From contig NZ_CP102197.1 of the NCBI RefSeq assembly GCF_024584435.1, forward strand, positions 2,170,001 through 2,234,000: 64,000 bases of DNA, given 5' to 3'. Each line of letters opens with the position of its first letter. The stretch's first letter is position 1. The translations under genes and the position numbers were made by a program. A model generated the notes under the pieces. That model worked only from the letters and a program-made list of their open reading frames with translations, was not told the DNA's origin and ran no database searches. Source of the DNA: Schaalia odontolytica (lineage in GTDB: Bacteria > Actinomycetota > Actinomycetes > Actinomycetales > Actinomycetaceae). Of this stretch, positions 4,837 to 17,498 are shown one piece after another.

Positions 4837-6294
4837 GTGCGCTATATTTCCACCCGACGCGGCCCCGACGCCTGCCCCCGATCCTTCAGCGACATCCTCT
4901 TGGAGGGCCTCGCCCCCGACGGCGGGCTCTACCTGCCCGAGGAGTACCCGGCCCTCGATGGATCCGACCTCGACACGCTGCGTGGCGTCCTGGCGGAGGA
5001 AGGGTACGCGGCCATGGCGGCCCGCATCCTGGCGCTCTTCGTCGACGACATTCCCGCCGAGGACCTGAACGCCATTGCGGCACGCGCCTACCGTACCCCC
5101 GCCTTCAGTGACCCCCGGATCGTGCCCGTCAGCGCCCTGGAGGGTACCGGCCTGCACCTGGCTCACCTCTCGGGCGGCCCCACGGCCGCGTTCAAGGACA
5201 TGGCCATGCAGCTCCTGGGTGAGCTCTTCGAATACGAGCTCACCCGACGCGGCGACTGGCTCACGATCGTGGGGGCGACCTCGGGCGACACCGGCTCCTC
5301 CGCCGAGTACGCCCTGCGTGGCCGCCCCGGCCTCTCCGTCGTCATGCTCACCCCCGCCGGGCGCATGACCGCCTTCCAACGCGCCCAGATGTTCTCCCTT
5401 GCCGACTCCAACATCGTCAACGTCGCCGTCGACGGGGTCTTCGACGACTGTCAGGACCTGGTCAAGGCCGTCAACATGGACGCCGAGTTCAAGGCGGCCT
5501 GGCACGTGGGAGCCGTCAACTCCATCAACTGGGCGCGCCTGCTCGCCCAGGTCTGCTACTACGTGGCGACGTGGCTGCGCGTCACCGAGCAGGACGCCTC
5601 CGCGAAGGTCAGCGTCGTTGTCCCCTCGGGCAACTTCGGCAACGTCTGCGCCGCCCACATCGCCCGTCAGATGGGAGTTCCGCTGGGTAGCCTCGTCGTC
5701 GCCACCAACGAGAACGACGTGCTGGACGAGTTCTTCCGCACCGGCGTCTACCGGCCCCGCTCCGCCGCCGACACACTCGCCACGTCCAGCCCATCCATGG
5801 ACATCTCCAAGGCATCCAACTTCGAGCGATTCATCTTCGATCTGCTGGGACGCGACGGGGACGCCACGCGCGCCCTCTTCGGCGAGGCGCTCGCCCGCGA
5901 CGGTTTCTTCGACCTGTCCGCAACGCCCGAATTCGCCTCCCTGCGAGACACCTACGGCTTCATGTCGGGAACCTCCACCCACGCCGATCGCCTGGAGGAA
6001 ATCGCGCGCACCGAGAAGGAAAGCGGCTACCTCCTCGACCCGCACACCGCCGACGGCGTGCACGTTGCGCGCGCGGTCCGCGCCGAGATCGAGGGCCCGC
6101 TCGTCGTCATGGAGACCGCCCTGCCCGTCAAGTTCGCCGACACCATCCTCGAGGCCACCGGGCACCTGCCGCCCGTCCCCTCCCGCTTCGAGGGGATCGA
6201 GGGCCAGGAAGAGCGCGTCACACCCCTGGCCAACTCGGCGCAGGCCCTCAAGGAGCTGATCGCGCAGCGCGTGCGTCCCGCAGGCCGCGCCTGA
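4837..6294 (+). CDS. thrC: Threonine synthase
   Basis: 485 residues, GTG start at 4837. ThrC converts O-phospho-L-homoserine to threonine with pyridoxal phosphate in the cytoplasm. The N-terminus MRYISTRRG and the early block LAPDGGLYLPEEYP are typical of the longer (ThrC1) class. The PLP lysine is K120 in GGPTAAFKDMAMQL, and the phosphate-binding loop appears as GATSGDTGSSAEYA. The block VVPSGNFGNVCAA also matches the family. It stands alone, divergent from the membrane-protein/ispF unit, with 125 bp between starts. A 19-bp sequence occurs twice downstream (6315-6333 and 6376-6394) before cysS; I cannot assign it a role. Confidence 0.96.
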   Translation: MRYISTRRGPDACPRSFSDILLEGLAPDGGLYLPEEYPALDGSDLDTLRGVLAEEGYAAMAARILALFVDDIPAEDLNAIAARAYRTPAFSDPRIVPVSALEGTGLHLAHLSGGPTAAFKDMAMQLLGELFEYELTRRGDWLTIVGATSGDTGSSAEYALRGRPGLSVVMLTPAGRMTAFQRAQMFSLADSNIVNVAVDGVFDDCQDLVKAVNMDAEFKAAWHVGAVNSINWARLLAQVCYYVATWLRVTEQDASAKVSVVVPSGNFGNVCAAHIARQMGVPLGSLVVATNENDVLDEFFRTGVYRPRSAADTLATSSPSMDISKASNFERFIFDLLGRDGDATRALFGEALARDGFFDLSATPEFASLRDTYGFMSGTSTHADRLEEIARTEKESGYLLDPHTADGVHVARAVRAEIEGPLVVMETALPVKFADTILEATGHLPPVPSRFEGIEGQEERVTPLANSAQALKELIAQRVRPAGRA

Positions 6295-6524
6295 CACGCC
6301 CCTGCCCCCGGGCCGCCGCCTCGGCCCCGCACGGGAACCCACGGCGCGGCCCAGCAGCCCGGGCCTAAGCTCGGCGCCGCCTCGGCCCCGCACGCGCGAG
6401 CCCGAGGGATCGCGGGCGAGCCTCGATCCCCGACAAAACGGGGGGCAACCCCGGCCTCGTCACATCCTCCCGCCGGGTAGGCGCGCCCGGCGACGCCGAT
6501 GCCAGCCCGGGTAGGATGAGCACC

Positions 6525-7976
<1,452 letters not shown>

Positions 7977-9302: not shown

Positions 9303-10280
9303 ATGGCCGCACACAGCGGGCGCCCCGGCGCCATCCGTAAGAAGGGTACCAAGAAGGGCGCGCAGGTGGGCACCGGCGGGCACTCGCGCCGCCGCCTCGA
9401 AGGCAAGGGGCCGACCCCCAAGGCTGAGGATCGCACCTACCACCCCGCCCACAAGCGCAAGGTCAAGCGCGAGGCCCGGGAGGCCCAGGAGGCCGCCATT
9501 GCCCGCGCACGCGCCAAGTCTTCCATTCGCATCAAGCCTGGCCACGAGCTGATCGCCGGGCGCAACCCGGTCGCCGAGGCCGCCCGCGCCTCGGTCCCGA
9601 TTGAGCGCGTCTTCGTGCTGGACAACGTCAAGGACGACCGCGTGGAGGAGGTCGTGCGCCTCGCCTCGGCTATGGGGGCTCCCGTCTACGAGGTGACCCG
9701 CCGCGACCTGGACGTCGCGACCGACGGGGCGGTTCACCAGGGGGTGGCCATCGAGGTGCGCGGCTACGAGTACGCCGATGCTTCCGACCTCATTGCAGGG
9801 TCCCTGCAGCAGCTGGGCCACCCGCTCCTCGTTGCCCTCGACCAGGTGACGGACCCGCACAACCTGGGTGCGGTCCTGCGCAGCGCGGGCGCGTTCGGCG
9901 CCGACGGCGTCATCATCCCTGAGCGTCGCAGCGCGGGCGTCAACACCACGGCGTGGAAGGTGTCGGCCGGCGCGGCGGCGCGTGTGCCCGTGGCTCGCGC
10001 GACGAACCTCGTGCGTGCCCTGGAGGAGGCCAAGCGGGCCGGCTACTTCGTGGTCGGCCTGGATGGCGGAGGGGATGCTCCCCTGCGTGGCCTCTCGCTC
10101 GCCGACGGCCCGCTCGTCGTGGTCACGGGGGCCGAGGGTGCGGGCCTGTCCCGCCTCGTGCGGGAAACCTGCGATCAGATCGTGTCCATCCCGATCGCCT
10201 CCACCGTCGAATCCCTCAACGCGGCGGTCGCCACGGGCATTGCCCTGTACGAGGTGGCCTCCCTGCGCGCCAAGGCCTGA
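9303..10280 (+). CDS. rlmB: 23S rRNA (guanosine-2'-O-)-methyltransferase, TrmH/SpoU family
   Basis: 325 residues, ATG at 9303. A basic, low-complexity N-terminal tail (1-80, rich in Lys, Arg, Gly) precedes a SpoU substrate-binding domain beginning at HELIAGRNPVAEA and a SpoU knotted methyltransferase domain. The three SPOUT motifs are visible: LDQVTDPHNLGAVLRSAGAF, VVTGAEGAGLSRLV and IPIASTVESLNAAVATGIAL. RlmB methylates G2251 (E. coli numbering) of 23S rRNA using S-adenosylmethionine. Actinobacterial members often carry the basic tail and follow cysS, as here with the DUF1697 gene and repeat island intervening. Other TrmH-family targets cannot be excluded from sequence alone. Confidence 0.92.
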   Translation: MAAHSGRPGAIRKKGTKKGAQVGTGGHSRRRLEGKGPTPKAEDRTYHPAHKRKVKREAREAQEAAIARARAKSSIRIKPGHELIAGRNPVAEAARASVPIERVFVLDNVKDDRVEEVVRLASAMGAPVYEVTRRDLDVATDGAVHQGVAIEVRGYEYADASDLIAGSLQQLGHPLLVALDQVTDPHNLGAVLRSAGAFGADGVIIPERRSAGVNTTAWKVSAGAAARVPVARATNLVRALEEAKRAGYFVVGLDGGGDAPLRGLSLADGPLVVVTGAEGAGLSRLVRETCDQIVSIPIASTVESLNAAVATGIALYEVASLRAKA

Positions 10281-10456: not shown

Positions 10457-10747
10457 TCAGCTCGCCCACATGGCGTTGACCGTCGCGTGGGCCTCGCGGT
10501 AGTGATCGAGCGCCGACTCGAGAGCTTTCTTGTTGTCCGCGAGGGACTTGGCAACGTCCCGCAGCTTCTTCTCGTGTCCCACGGCACGGTCGAGGGCCGC
10601 GGACGCAGCCTCGCCCTCCCAACCACGAGCCAGGAGCGATGCCGCCTGCGGAACACCGTCGATCAGGGCCTCGAGCTCGTCGGCTCGTGCCCCGAGGGTG
10701 GTGGCCAAGGCCTGGAGTTCATCCTCGTTGACGTAAATCTCGCTCAT
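10457..10747 (-). CDS. WXG100 (ESAT-6-like) family protein
   Basis: 96 residues from the ATG at 10747, which follows GGAG by 6 bases; the longer upstream frame lacks a good site. The protein is an all-helical, charged polypeptide with the central Trp-Glu-Gly turn (ARGWEGEAASAAL, around residue 43), the WXG hallmark, and heptad-like helices on each side. WXG100 proteins are small substrates or partners of type VII (ESX) secretion, secreted as helical-hairpin dimers. No EssC/EccC ATPase or other secretion component is in this window. It ends the minus-strand block with the four-member family at 11035-13656, 287 bp away, which may be a functional link or only proximity. Confidence 0.82.
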   Translation of the reverse strand: MSEIYVNEDELQALATTLGARADELEALIDGVPQAASLLARGWEGEAASAALDRAVGHEKKLRDVAKSLADNKKALESALDHYREAHATVNAMWAS

Positions 10748-11034: not shown

Positions 11035-11634
11035 CTACCGTCTGCGTTTCTGTGCGGCCTTGCGCATCGCCATAAGCTCGGGGACCGAGAGGGGTATGTC
11101 CGGCTCGATGTCCTTGCGATCGAGGTGATGGACGGGGGCGGACAGGATGCCCTGGGCGTTGAATGACTCTTCGAGCGAGCGCATCGACGATTCGATGTAA
11201 CTGTTTTCGAAGCCGCTGAGGTTGATTCGCGTCGCCCAATCAGCGAGGCACCACAGTTCGGTCATCGGCCCCGATTCGTCCTCGATCGTGCGTGCGATGA
11301 TGTCCACGTAAATCTTGGTGATGGCGGCTCTCTTGACACGGTTGGGCAGGAAAGAGCTTGTCTGTGATAACAGGAGGGTGAGCCCTCGCGTGTTGAAGAA
11401 AAAATCAGTGAGGAGTGCGCGCCCGCTGTGTCCGATGACCAGCTCCGTTCCCGACCACCCTCGCTGCTTGAATTGTTCGCGCATGCCGACTCTCTCGGAG
11501 CGGATGCCTTTCATCTTCCACAGGCCGACGCAGCGAGACACGGCGTCGGCGGGGGCTATTGCCAGGCGAAAAACGGTGATCGGGCTGAAAGATGCGTCGA
11601 AGTCTCGTTGCGTGGTTGAGACAAAAGAGTTCAT
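11035..11634 (-). CDS. Unknown protein, tandem family member 4 (intact)
   Basis: 199 residues, ATG at 11634 with GGAAGA six bases upstream; 20 bp after the previous gene of the family. I do not recognise the family. Features shared with the three upstream paralogues: an N-terminal strand (FSPITVFRLAI), a helix with DAVSRCVGLWKMKGI, the block GMREQFKQRGWSGTEL followed by IGHSG, a central TELWCLADW, a helix reading SLEESFNAQGIL, and a basic C-terminus after PELMAMRKAAQ. There is no signal peptide or membrane segment, so it is probably cytoplasmic or an unclassified secretion substrate. It is the only member of the four whose frame is undisturbed. Codon use looks less GC-biased than in neighbouring housekeeping genes. 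Confidence 0.75.
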   Translation of the reverse strand: MNSFVSTTQRDFDASFSPITVFRLAIAPADAVSRCVGLWKMKGIRSERVGMREQFKQRGWSGTELVIGHSGRALLTDFFFNTRGLTLLLSQTSSFLPNRVKRAAITKIYVDIIARTIEDESGPMTELWCLADWATRINLSGFENSYIESSMRSLEESFNAQGILSAPVHHLDRKDIEPDIPLSVPELMAMRKAAQKRRR

Positions 11635-11654
11635 CGTCTATCTTCCGTGTGGTG

Positions 11655-12284
11655 TCAGTAGTGCCTGTTCTTCTTCGCGTCCCTGCGCATGATGGCGACG
11701 CTTCGGAAGTAGAACAGGTGGTCTTTCGGCAGGTCTCCGCCGTGGAAGAATCGAGGAGCTTCCAGGAGGAGTCCTTGGCGCTGGAGGTCGCCCGCGAGTT
11801 CACGGAAGGACATGTCCATGAAGGCGTCAGTACCCCAGCGTTCATCGTGCAGAATGCGAGCCTCGCAGCACCAGAGTTCGGACGCTGGGCGTCCCCCCAC
11901 TGAGCAGGAACGTGCGGCGACGAGGATCTCTGTCCTCTCTTGGCGTGTGCGTTTGACCGACGTGGGTGCTGTGGAAGGGAGGAGGTCGATGCCCGGGATA
12001 GCGTCGATGATTGGCGATAGTGCGAGGCTGCGCAGATCGCTGCCGATAATGACTTCCGCGCCGACCCAACCGTGCTGGGCGAGCTGCTCACGCATGCCGT
12101 TCGTCTCGCCCCAGGCTCCTTTGGACACCCAGTAGTTGACAGCATGCGTGACCGTCTGATGTGGGTCGGCCGCGATGAGCGCGTAGAAGTACCTGCGTCG
12201 GTTGATGACCCTCCGTAGAGAGAAACCTGAATGACCTGCCCCCCATGAATATCCTCCTCGAGGAAAGACCAGTGTCAACAACAA
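11655..12284 (-). CDS. Unknown protein, tandem family member 3 (start region frame-disturbed)
   Basis: 209 residues if read from a TTG at 12284, which has no ribosome-binding site. A much better start exists: ATG at 12246, with GAGGAGG upstream, but it is out of frame. The ATG runs into six G in a row (12239-12244 as C on the plus strand). With five G the ATG would read straight into this frame and give a 196-residue protein, close to the 199 of the intact paralogue. Family features are present: GMREQLAQHGWVGAEVIIG, SELWC, a helix reading FRELAGDLQRQGLLLEAP, LPKDH and a basic C-terminus. Function unknown. Either the tract varies in length, the gene is decaying, or the base count is wrong here. 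Confidence 0.6.
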   Translation of the reverse strand: MLLTLVFPRGGYSWGAGHSGFSLRRVINRRRYFYALIAADPHQTVTHAVNYWVSKGAWGETNGMREQLAQHGWVGAEVIIGSDLRSLALSPIIDAIPGIDLLPSTAPTSVKRTRQERTEILVAARSCSVGGRPASELWCCEARILHDERWGTDAFMDMSFRELAGDLQRQGLLLEAPRFFHGGDLPKDHLFYFRSVAIMRRDAKKNRHY

Positions 12285-12408
12285 GCATCAGCACTCTGCC
12301 GCAGTGTGTTGCTGCTGAGCGCCGCTGCTCACCAGGATACTATCCGCAGGGAATTATCGGGATTGACGAGGCATGGGAATCCCCGTGGTGATCGGCCGGG
12401 GAGGGAGG

Positions 12409-13010
12409 CTACCCCCGGCACTTCTTTGCAGCCTTGCGCATTGCCGTGAGCTCGGGGAGTGAGAGGGGGACGTCCGACGGGATATCCCAGCGATTGAGGT
12501 GACGGGCGGGTGCAGTCATGATGCCCTGCGCGTTGAAGGACTCTTCGAGTGAGTGCATCGACGATTCAGCGTAACTGTTTTCGAAGCCGCTGAGATTCAT
12601 CCGTGTTGCCCAATCAGTGAGGCACCACAGTTCGGTCACCGGACTCGATTCGCTCTCGACTGTGCGCGCAATCATATCCACGTACACCTTGGTGATGGCG
12701 GCTCGCTTGATTCGGTCGGGCACGAGAGAGAGGGGGCATGTGACAAGAGACGACGGTATGAGCGTGTCTCGAAGATAACATTAGTCAGGAATGCGCGACC
12801 GCTGTGTCCGATGGTCAGTTCCGTTCCGGTCCATCCCCGCTGCTTGAATTGTTCTTGCATGCCGATAGTGGTGCAGCGGGCCCCCTTCGCCTTCCAGAGA
12901 CCGACGCAGCGGGAGACAGCATCGGACCGGGACGCTGACAGCTGAAAAACGGCGATCGTGCTGAAAGATTCGTTGAAGCCTTGCTGCATACTTGAAATGA
13001 AAGAGTTCAT
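12409..13010 (-). pseudogene. Unknown protein, tandem family member 2, frameshifted
   Basis: Close paralogue of the protein at 11035-11634, broken into two frames. The first part runs from the ATG at 13010 (AAGAAGG upstream) through FISSMQQGFNESFSTIAVF, GMQEQFKQRGWTGTELTIGH and ETRSYRRLLSH. The second part, in another frame, resumes at PDRIKRAAITKVYVDMIA and ends at 12409. The break falls in a GA-repeat next to a G run: (GA)4 at 12724-12731, then GGGGG at 12732-12736. Removing one GA joins the halves at exactly 199 residues, the length of the intact paralogue, and aligns HAPSLV with QTSSFL. The extra dinucleotide therefore looks like slippage. It may be phase-variable rather than dead. Confidence 0.75.
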
Positions 13011-13656
13011 CGGCCTTCTTTCCGGGAAAAAGGGATGAGAACGGAACACTAGTGATGCCCCGCATCTGGGCGATGTTGGCGGGGGAGAGGGGGTGGTCTT
13101 CGGGCAGCTCCTCACCATCGACGAGGCGTGGGGGAGTTGCCAGGATGCCCTGCTGGTGCAGGGCCGTGTGCAGGTACTCGAAGACGCGGGCGAACGGATC
13201 CTTGCCGGGGCGGGCGCGTTGAATCGCCGTATCCCAGGGGAAACACCACAGCTCGGTGCAGGCCTGCTCGGCGTCGGGCAGCGGGCGAGCCGCGATGATG
13301 ATCGTCGTCTTGTTGAGGTGACGCAGCTGCGCGCGCACCGCCTTCGCCGACAGGTGGATGGCGAGGCCGCCCAAGGCGAGGGCTGGGGAGATCTCAGCGA
13401 CATCCAGAAGGGTGTCGTGGTTGCGCCTGCGTGAGGCCGTGACCTGCCCGGGCATGACCGTGACCTCGGTGCCCGACCAGCCGATGTCCGCGAAACGCTT
13501 GCACATCGTGGTCGACTCGCGCTTGATACCGATGGCACGCCAGAACTGGGCGCAGCGCGCAACGGCCTCCGCCGGTGGACACGACACGGTGTACACCGTC
13601 ATGGGGAGCCTCTTCAGGAGCGAGTCCAGCGGTAGGCGCGGGGGAGTGATATCCAT
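12781..13656 (-). CDS. Unknown protein, tandem family member 1 (3' end frame-disturbed)
   Basis: 291 residues from the ATG at 13656, which AGGAG precedes by five bases; an upstream in-frame GTG at 13662 is less likely. Residues 1-200 match the family: FADIGWSGTEVTV, CTELWCFPWD, LHQQGILATPPRLVDGEELP and ANIAQMRG. The frame then continues about 90 codons over the start of the next gene, in a different frame. The family's natural end is nearby: one extra base in the GGGG tract (13058-13061, C on the plus strand) would give MRG-His-His-stop at 13049 and a 202-residue protein. The C-terminal third is thus probably an accident of the frame. Function unknown. Confidence 0.65.
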   Translation of the reverse strand: MDITPPRLPLDSLLKRLPMTVYTVSCPPAEAVARCAQFWRAIGIKRESTTMCKRFADIGWSGTEVTVMPGQVTASRRRNHDTLLDVAEISPALALGGLAIHLSAKAVRAQLRHLNKTTIIIAARPLPDAEQACTELWCFPWDTAIQRARPGKDPFARVFEYLHTALHQQGILATPPRLVDGEELPEDHPLSPANIAQMRGITSVPFSSLFPGKKADELFHFKYAARLQRIFQHDRRFSAVSVPVRCCLPLRRSLEGEGGPLHHYRHARTIQAAGMDRNGTDHRTQRSRIPD

Positions 13657-13751: not shown

Positions 13752-15621
<1,870 letters not shown>

Positions 15622-15667: not shown

Positions 15668-16574
15668 GCTGCGCTGTCCGGGCCTCGCCCGCAGCCCCGT
15701 GGTCGAGCCTCGTCGTGCTCTATCGTGTGGGAGCCTCGCGCGAGAGGCGGCAGTCTGTGACATCTCCACCGTCGCGAGGGGCAGCCGGGCCGCTGGATGA
15801 AACTCCAACCGCCCCTGCGTCGCCAGCCTGCGGGTTCTGTGAAACTCCAACCGCCCCTGCGTCGTCGGCCTGTGGGTTCTGTGAAACTCCAACCGCCCCT
15901 GCCTGCCCGAAATGGCGCAAAAATGACCCTTGCCGGGCGACAGGGGTGGTCGCGGTTTCACTGGGGGCGGGCGTGCCGTACGCAGGGGTGGTCGTGGTTT
16001 CACTGGGGGTGGGTGTGCTGTACGCGGGGGTGGTCGTGGTTTCACTGGGGGTGGGTGTGCCGTACGCAGGGGTGGTCGCGGTTTCAGTCGCGGTTGAGAG
16101 GAGGACGGACTCCGCGCAGACGCGCTGAGCCGCGCCCTCGGCGGGCGCGCCTCGGCGCCTGCAAGAGGACGGAAACCGGTAGCAGGGAACGTGCGGGTTG
16201 CGGGCGAGGTCGGCACAGACGTCCCGTGTCCCACACCGTGGCCGGGTGCCCCGCCATCGACGCCCGGATACGACAAAGCACGCCGAACCGAATGCGCCTG
16301 TCGGCGCGAAGGCCGCTCGTAGCGGCAGAGTTTGGAGCCCGGGGCATACCGGTCCGGCGTGCTCCACAACTGTACGGCGAAGGAACGCCTCGGCGCATCT
16401 TCGGCAGGCGTGCGCATACACACACTCGCTCGGCCCCTCCCCGCCTCCCGCCAGTCGGTGCCCCCCCGCGGCTGTCCCCCCGCGGCCGTCCCACCCCTGC
16501 CCCCGCCCCGCCACCGCCGCGAGGCGCGGGGCGGGGCCTCGCAACCACCGCACATGTGCGACGATGGAGGCGTG
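15668..16574. other. Gene-free stretch after purA
   Basis: About 900 bp without a convincing gene. One open frame runs from the repeat island at 15798-16093 far downstream, but only because the 42-bp repeat unit is a multiple of three; it codes low-complexity Arg/Pro-rich sequence and has no start signal. From 16094 to 16560 the sequence is GC-rich with no repeat or motif that I can identify, until the GGAGG site of the next gene. Confidence 0.6.
15798..16093. repeat. Opposed-repeat island, family C (42 bp units)
   Basis: Left side: two full 42-bp units (15798-15839, 15840-15881) and a partial third, each starting TGAAACTCCAACCGCCCCTG. Right side: three full 42-bp units (15941-15982, 15983-16024, 16025-16066) and a partial fourth, each starting CAGGGGTGGTCG and containing GGTTTCAC. 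The right units are the reverse complement of the left in their 21-bp core (GTGAAAC...CCCCTG). The unique centre (about 15903-15940) is bounded by short complementary arms, TGCCCG and CGGGCGA. The design matches families A and B although the sequences are unrelated. Confidence 0.85.
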
Positions 16575-17498
16575 ATGACATCAAGCCAGCCTCCCACGCG
16601 AACCCGAACCGGCCCCGACCGCGGGCGCCGCCGCGACACACCGGCGACCCTTCGTGTCCCAGCCGCCGTGGGCACGCTCATTGTCATGCTCCTGGCCGCG
16701 CTGACGATCGCGGCCTGGTGGTTGCCCGGCTCGCGGTGGAGCGTGGGTCCCGTCGTCGCGGTGGCATCCTTCCTTCTCGCCCTCGGGTGGCCTTCCCTCG
16801 CTCGCCTGCACATGCCGTGGCTCGCGCAGGCGGTCCTCGCTCTGGGGGGTGCGCTGACGCCGGTGGCCGTTGCCTACTGGAAGAACCTCGACATCGCGAT
16901 CCCGCTGACGGGCATCACGCTGGTGGCCCTGGTTGCCGCCACGATTCTCGACGCGCCCGCTCCTCGGGACCACTCCGTCGGGCGAACGAGCGAGCACTGG
17001 GGTTCGACGTCCCTGACGGCGGCCCTGGCCTCGTCGGTGACCGCGCTCCTCATCATCACGGCCGGCTCGATGTGGGTGTCCCTGACCGTTCACGAGCGCT
17101 GGTCCGTCATCGTTCCCATGGCCGCTCTCATCGCGCTCGTCGCCGCCGCGTCGGCGCGAACTGGTCGCAGCTCGCGAGCCGTCGTCGTCTGGTCGATCAT
17201 CATGGGGTTGGCTGCCGGCCTGGTCGCAGCCTCGGCGGCGTGGATCCTCGGCCAGACATCCGACCTGCTTCCCGTCGTCTTCCCCTTTATCGCCAGACGA
17301 TTCGGAGACTTCGCCGCCTTCCTCACGCTCGGTGGCGTCACCGGATTCGGCGTGGGTTTCGCGGTGTCCGTCGTGGACGTGCTCCTGGGCGAGCGGACCT
17401 CCTCCGCGCAGCTGGCGAGCGTGCTCGGACGGGGAGCCGCGAAGTTCCTGGTCGCCGCCCTTCCGGTCTACGCGATGATCCGAATCGGCGGGATCTGA
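16575..17498 (+). CDS. Hypothetical polytopic membrane protein
   Basis: 307 residues from the ATG at 16575, four bases after ATGGAGG; the frame extends upstream but that part is Pro/Arg-rich and unsupported. A hydrophilic N-terminus (1-30) is followed by about eight hydrophobic helices, for example LIVMLLAALTIAAWWLPG, ALASSVTALLIITAG and VIVPMAALIALVAAASA. The fifth and sixth are linked by a short Arg-rich loop. Near the C-terminus, FLTLGGVTGFGVGFAVSVV resembles a glycine-rich packing helix. I do not recognise the family. It precedes the nitrobindin-like gene by 38 bp and could be co-transcribed with it. Confidence 0.75.
   Translation: MTSSQPPTRTRTGPDRGRRRDTPATLRVPAAVGTLIVMLLAALTIAAWWLPGSRWSVGPVVAVASFLLALGWPSLARLHMPWLAQAVLALGGALTPVAVAYWKNLDIAIPLTGITLVALVAATILDAPAPRDHSVGRTSEHWGSTSLTAALASSVTALLIITAGSMWVSLTVHERWSVIVPMAALIALVAAASARTGRSSRAVVVWSIIMGLAAGLVAASAAWILGQTSDLLPVVFPFIARRFGDFAAFLTLGGVTGFGVGFAVSVVDVLLGERTSSAQLASVLGRGAAKFLVAALPVYAMIRIGGI

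Follow-up and report, generated by a model that had tools for sequence, protein, structure and literature searches.

FamX, a candidate immunity family associated with type VII secretion, and its apparently ageing tandem array in Schaalia odontolytica

FamX is the name that we give to four tandem paralogues found on the minus strand, at positions 11035-13656, of a 64,000-nucleotide stretch of the Schaalia odontolytica chromosome (the window; contig NZ_CP102197.1). We think that FamX may represent a new protein family with an immunity-type role in connection with the type VII secretion system (T7SS), and that the window would contain an ageing orphan array of such genes; we regard this as about as probable as its opposite. 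The family itself, its operon linkage, the persistence of orphans, purifying selection and mosaicism by segments are observed; that the substrate P400 (see below) is secreted and harmful, and that FamX binds and neutralises it, we infer. FamX resembles a set of spare antidotes to a rival that injects proteins, because the family closes an operon of T7SS substrates in relatives and often outlasts it. Taken together, its linkage to this operon, the diversity of its tandem copies, what looks like an exchange of cassettes, and its retention without the substrate and, in a few genomes, without a recognised ATPase agree with the published picture of T7SS immunity arrays.

Operon linkage, orphan copies and apparent mosaic structure

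The partners of FamX were counted by a profile scan of 33 FamX loci from 30 genomes, in which P400 is a helical protein of ~400 aa and P137 a helical protein of ~135 aa. P400, P137 and a WXG100 gene share an operon with FamX, on the same strand, in 10 of the 33 loci (L numbers denote loci and G numbers genomes). P400 is intact in seven of them (L036, L037, L045, L046, L068, L079 and L127) and broken or truncated in the other three (L074, L126 and L160). FamX forms the 3' end of the P400 operons, and in L126 it is also present ahead of WXG100. The window locus holds only WXG100 of the three partners, and 22 of the 33 loci consist of FamX alone. The fetched stretches were unequal (8.9 kb for L160, 13.8 kb for L034, and FamX 3.2 kb from the start in L075), thus partners located farther away could escape the count; within the genus, partner loss is covered by a genome-wide search, in which P400 was found in 6 of 35 genomes, once as a fragment, and nowhere in 13 of the 18 genomes that carry FamX.

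A role of P400 as T7SS substrate is suggested by its operon and by loci beside EccD. The P400-type locus L136 adjoins the gene of EccD (PF19053), and therefore P400 is tied to the T7SS machine. P400 is partly matched in L135, L136 and L137, from other families of the order, with P137 and WXG100 near an EccD gene, and both P400 and P137 may belong permanently to certain T7SS loci. Among 396 sampled genomes of the order, P400 was found in 23, many of the matches being partial; at most the four best first-look candidates per genome were scored, which makes the misses less certain. In L130 the gene is split into two neighbouring ones (5339-6995). P400 gave no NCBIfam match and no Pfam match over a cut-off, and P137 likewise nothing over a cut-off. 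Genes of ~150 aa that, in another bacterial family, follow P400 in L128 (7836-8294) and L129 (7584-8012) looked FamX-like by eye and were rejected, hhalign giving no support.

FamX seems to outlast the substrate genes, because the same sites show the whole module in some genomes and FamX alone in others. One Actinomyces site exists in three states: the whole module in L079, a P400 gene distributed over three frames in L160, and FamX alone in L078. L160 belongs to a fragmented draft in which sequencing errors are possible; its FamX, P137 and WXG100 match as in L079. At another site, the module of L068 adjoins a gene like the DUF4032 gene of L067, and in L067 FamX comes directly after DUF4032. 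Moreover, in four species (L041-L044) a solitary single-copy FamX gene, without any partner, immediately adjoins rlmB on one side and DUF456/purA on the other. Lone FamX genes are under purifying selection, as dN/dS is 0.07-0.12 among these four orphan species; values of 0.14-0.54 were obtained in other pairs, compared with 0 to 0.15 for neighbouring genes, the FamX pairs being a chosen subset. At a further location (L075:2726-3784, in G202, a genome without full-length match to the T7SS ATPase EccC), FamX is directly downstream of a DUF1877 gene.

Several FamX copies look like mosaics of three cassettes exchanged near conserved blocks. For this comparison we divided selected pairs at cut points of our own choosing, placed at the motifs GTE and ELWC, without a formal test for recombination. 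The third copy of L035 and the first of L033 are 95%, 90% and 44% identical in their N-terminal, middle and C-terminal parts, respectively, whereas the latter and the third copy of L034 are 64%, 42% and 96% identical. Synonymous differences switch in step (0.20, 0.18 and 0.52 in the first pair; 0.29, 0.58 and 0.09 in the second) and therefore point to exchange rather than to selection alone. The D copies differ chiefly in their middle part. Comparison of L036 with L037, in which P400 is 91% identical and the best FamX pair 52%, suggests that turnover can be more rapid in a FamX array than in the operon.

The array of the window and its family

The sequence-only reading had described four tandem paralogues beside a WXG100 gene, and a search of the own genome confirmed them. 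With copy A as query, the two pieces of copy C were matched with E 8.5e-50 and 1.4e-33, copy D with 3.4e-17 and copy B with 7.6e-15, and at E 0.001 the 2.39-Mb chromosome gave no match outside the array run. The relatedness of the four copies is far above chance. They form a homologous run in which only copy A is a clean open reading frame (ORF). In copy B the ATG at the start position of the nearest relative is out of frame, and another upstream start is required. Copy C is split over two frames. The frame of copy D extends to 12781, past the end point of the D copies of relatives. For alignments, copy B was therefore taken as a frame stretch without start codon and copy D as ~200 codons of a longer frame. 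Two of the window frames break at short G or TC runs, as judged against relatives, and intact counterparts of the broken copies are present in other genomes. L036 and L039 likewise carry truncated or broken FamX copies.

The shared blocks that had been reported for all copies, such as GMREQF...GWSGTE, occur letter for letter in A and almost unchanged in C, whereas B (GMREQL..GWVGAE) and D (MCKRF..GWSGTE) have approximations of them; ELWC occurs in the four. Similarly, the weaker GC bias noted at the beginning holds for copies A and B, with GC content at third codon positions (GC3) of 0.75 and 0.74, but not for copy D (0.86), when compared with rlmB (0.89), DUF456 (0.90) and a 17.5-kb gene (0.84).

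The statement that FamX has no known domain has stood up to all the library searches. None of the Pfam, NCBIfam, PADLOC or PHROG models was over its cut-off, neither for the window copies nor for the 28 members of a later scan. The sole E values below 0.01 were those of DUF6046 (0.0089, in one of the 28 members) and of PADLOC SAVED_PDDEXK (0.0024, 14.7 bits, on a broken piece of copy C), and the latter identity was discarded, as it is seen in none of copies A, B and D. Sequence searches of the PDB gave nothing convincing. The AlphaFold models of copies A and D predict a small alpha/beta domain with generic fold matches only; Foldseek gave no match at E 0.001 or below. A clear match to a characterised housekeeping family had been named beforehand as a refuting observation, and no characterised family was matched. 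EspG and known T7SS immunity proteins were not among the fold matches listed, an absence that does not count as evidence, and none of the 28 members scanned matched EspG (PF14011) in sequence. No signal peptide was noticed when reading the sequences by eye, without running a predictor. The conserved columns of the widest alignment are P, G, A and L, and no set of catalytic type is conserved there. L076 is absent from alignment A4, as the stretch used held stops, but is included in the 33 loci.

FamX was found solely within its order: in 18 of 35 genus genomes, in 27 of 213 family genomes, in 10 of 396 sampled order genomes and in 1 of 396 sampled phylum genomes, which is the genome of the window itself. 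The family count follows the removal of one false match from 28 (in G196, 48 residues inside an ORF of an ATPase-type regulator). At most 15 best first-look candidates per genome were scored in the family search and at most 8 in those of the order and phylum. Plasmid and phage records searched with copy B gave no match, and FamX is absent from the close relative G012, whose EccC is 91% identical. Loci were fetched from relatives including Schaalia odontolytica FDAARGOS_732 and Actinomyces sp. HPA0247. Absence of the tandem arrangement in close relatives had been set beforehand as a refuting observation; at the rlmB-purA site it is present, with at least 2 copies in 10 of the 14 loci examined and a single copy in 4. 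Overall, a locus has up to 4 copies, and many have a single one.

The features of the window are collected in Table 1. A WXG100 counterpart stands upstream of the FamX array in most relatives that possess one. The WXG100 protein of the window has the WEG turn and scored 35.4 bits (as a truncated stretch) and 34.4 bits against PF06013 (cut-off 27.3); against NCBIfam TIGR03930 it scored 36.2, below the cut-off of 44.85. The profile used for WXG proteins included the truncated window copy, and the first residue of every protein was set to M. The C-terminal motif YxxxD/E acts as a secretion signal, which only one partner of a pair requires; the window protein reads YREAH at this position, and the copies of L036/L037 read YEETE. 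Beside purA, the region 15700-16600 of the window is repetitive, its ORFs on both strands consisting of short repeated peptides.

Table 1. Features of the FamX array and its flanks in the window
Feature	Positions	Strand	Basis
rlmB-type rRNA methyltransferase, conserved array flank	9303..10280	+	Pfam, loci of relatives
WXG100 protein, 96 aa, T7SS substrate type	10457..10747	-	Pfam PF06013 over cut-off
FamX copy A, 199 aa, sole clean ORF of the array	11035..11634	-	own-genome search; AlphaFold mean pLDDT 75.8
FamX copy B, 188 homologous codons within ORF 11655-12284	11655..12221	-	profile match 3.6e-73
FamX copy C, 3' part (frame stretch), broken copy	12409..12780	-	ORFs and own-genome search
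FamX copy C, 5' part, different frame	12723..13010	-	ORFs and own-genome search
FamX copy D, ~200 codons of a longer frame	13054..13656	-	ORFs; AlphaFold mean pLDDT 73.4 here
DUF456 membrane protein, conserved array flank, then purA	13752..14246	+	Pfam, loci of relatives

The own genome has a T7SS locus (L106, 2264-2284 kb) ~37 kb past the right end of the window. Its EccC-type ATPase is 1352 aa long and has three FtsK stretches; WXG100 genes are also present, as are several subtilase-like genes in a row. Of the latter, one was tested with Pfam and three neighbours were read alike, one of these being cut by the stretch. ORFs similar in look to the repeats beside purA occur at ~14.9-16.8 kb of L106. 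Two further T7SS-type loci were observed. One, L103:2879-5980, is in the own genome to the left of the window (~2162.9-2166.0 kb); the other is L104:2484-8300. Each encodes a protein of ~395 aa whose N-terminus resembles WXG100 (26.7 and 27.8 bits against PF06013, cut-off 27.3) and whose C-terminus is glycine/alanine-rich, together with a ~100-aa partner and two membrane-segment ORFs, which have 262 and 274 aa for L103 and 280 and 408 aa for L104. Judged by eye, these loci resemble the membrane-depolarising toxins TelE/EsxX with membrane immunity genes.

Weighing immunity against other functions

In the mechanism that we propose, P400, P137 and WXG100 would form a helical T7SS substrate set, of which P400 would be secreted and harmful. 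FamX, made last, would act within the cell by binding and blocking P400, or a variant of P400 from kin. The tandem copies would hold different specificities, and recombination near the GWxGTE and ELWC blocks would shuffle the three cassettes. Many strains would have lost P400 while keeping FamX as orphan protection against relatives, and the window would be one such orphan array, in which copies B, C and D are decaying or altered. Conflict or surface variation had been suggested from the beginning for this array. A link to type VII secretion is supported, and the operon, the orphans, the turnover of the arrays and the apparent cassette exchange support conflict in part; surface variation is not supported, given the predicted alpha/beta core and the lack of any signal peptide noticed by eye.

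Several observations weigh against the immunity proposal. Pfam and NCBIfam recognise no toxin domain in P400, nor an LXG domain with a toxin C-terminus; besides, its C-terminal quarter is variable and is not exchanged for another domain, unlike in classic polymorphic toxins. Therefore, we hold the immunity reading at about one half. No FamX is detectable beside P400 in G031, nor in 11 of the 13 loci read at the level of the order, where the P400 match was full or partial; the ORF calling used for these loci was simple and can overlook frames that overlap. L045 and L046 show the reverse of the turnover pattern, with FamX 81-84% and P400 66% identical. The nine closest FamX members share unvarying R, E, W, C and D residues, which leaves some room for an enzyme. 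Within the genus, a full-length EccC match (judged by eye; a match, whether continuous or in pieces, had to span almost all of the query) is present in 25 of 35 genomes: 17 of the 18 with FamX and 8 of the 17 without it (Fisher p 0.0027, uncorrected for kinship), an association that a chaperone would also produce. The FamX genomes G015, G051 and G202 gave only partial FtsK-type matches to the single EccC query, and long FtsK-type frames in G015 and others may be divergent T7SS ATPases. As a separate observation, the P400-P137-WXG100 module of G031 (L102:8216-16516) is near a 917-aa ORF that by eye resembles a large T7SS substrate.

The main rival is that FamX is a T7SS substrate chaperone, a stand-in for EspG/EsaE that would escort P400, P137 and WXG100, or other substrates, to EccC. 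This is unlikely in our opinion, even if it fits the position of FamX after the substrates in the operon and the way in which FamX follows EccC within the genus. The predicted alpha/beta domain also suits it, and the slot could be open, as EspG (PF14011) was over the cut-off in none of 12 genomes searched; it was in none of 14 control genomes either, hence this search had no positive control, and a single sub-threshold match was seen, in G029. What a chaperone does not fit is the orphans: FamX is retained in G051, G202 and G015, which gave no full-length EccC match, and 13 of the 18 FamX genomes of the genus have no P400 to be escorted. P400 loci without detectable FamX also speak against it, and the 2-4 diverse mosaic copies per locus would be unusual for a chaperone.

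We consider it rather improbable that the array of the window is a dying relic without present function, a reading under which the FamX proteins of relatives may act otherwise. The condition of copies B, C and D, together with the damaged copies of L036 and L039, speaks for decay, but copy A has remained intact and every FamX pair compared, orphans of related species included, has a dN/dS below 1. Still less credible is that FamX proteins are variable effectors delivered by the P400/P137/WXG100 set. Their diversity and operon linkage would agree with it; however, the constrained solitary copies of L041-L044 have no partner to deliver them, FamX occurs without a full-length EccC match, and the widest alignment conserves no catalytic-type residues. 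A surface-variation or phase-variation locus, for which the diversified tandem copies and the frame breaks could be invoked, is hardly tenable in view of the core and signal-peptide observations given above and of the length of the G/TC runs, which are a few units long (no repeat scan was made).

Relation to known systems and significance

T7SS-based killing of rivals is well documented for Bacillota. Several immunity families of these bacteria invite comparison with FamX. Non-identical tandem copies that recombine through conserved blocks are described for the immunity proteins EsaG of Staphylococcus aureus and TipC of Streptococcus mitis (PMC9484751). FamX shares with them the tandem non-identical copies together with a T7SS substrate operon, the changes of copy number and the pseudogenes. 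It differs in having no sequence-family relation to them (no Pfam/NCBIfam match) and in belonging to an actinobacterial T7SS instead of T7SSb; moreover, their partner is a toxin, whereas P400 has no recognised toxin domain and would be neutralised by FamX only under our proposal. TspA is accompanied by multiple diverse copies of the immunity protein TsaI beside the T7SS substrate, thought to act against toxins of kin (PMC7456083). This multiplicity is as in FamX arrays, but TsaI are polytopic membrane proteins (DUF443) with little recombination among them, according to PMC9484751.

Orphan immunity genes are known as well: ExiCD occurs in strains without the EsxX toxin or even without T7SS genes (PMC12744356). 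The same work describes ExiA/ExiB, which are soluble proteins of alpha/beta type encoded after an LXG substrate with small helical partners, an arrangement that FamX resembles. The orphans there are the membrane proteins ExiCD, while soluble ExiAB stays with the toxin; FamX would instead be an orphan of soluble type. In Actinobacteria, the T7SSd of Olsenella has predicted toxins of the Rhs and LXG-like kinds, accompanied by a single candidate gene for immunity in each case (PMC11217815), a predicted cytoplasmic immunity gene adjoining the T7SS locus being the common point with FamX; the accessible part of that paper mentions neither a tandem mosaic array nor a P400-type partner. The chaperones EspG/EsaE work with T7SS substrates and helical partners (PMC11217815), as FamX might, but FamX has no PF14011 match and is also found in genomes without a full-length EccC match. 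With KA1/SRPBCC-like small alpha/beta domains, FamX shares only the arrangement, with modest scores and no sequence relation.

Literature searches of incomplete coverage revealed no tandem mosaic array in an actinobacterial T7SS and no description of the FamX family or of its pairing with P400, which the family libraries do not describe either. The protein family, the setting of the array in Actinobacteria and the P400 partner appear to be new; recombination among tandem immunity genes is, as a principle, already known from Bacillota. We give somewhat less than an even chance to a tentative further proposal, in which FamX arrays are to Actinobacteria what the mosaic immunity arrays are to staphylococci. 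FamX would then be an undescribed immunity family, shuffled in three cassettes and retained by orphans as a defence against P400, itself an undescribed class of ~400-aa T7SS effectors lacking any known toxin domain.

If FamX confers immunity, the strains that carry it would be marked as having been attacked, and P400 would be pointed out as a new effector. Recombining tandem antidotes would then be the same answer reached from an unrelated protein family. Furthermore, if the reading of FamX as mosaic immunity arrays is true, there would be T7SS-driven warfare among the Actinomycetaceae of the mouth and gut.

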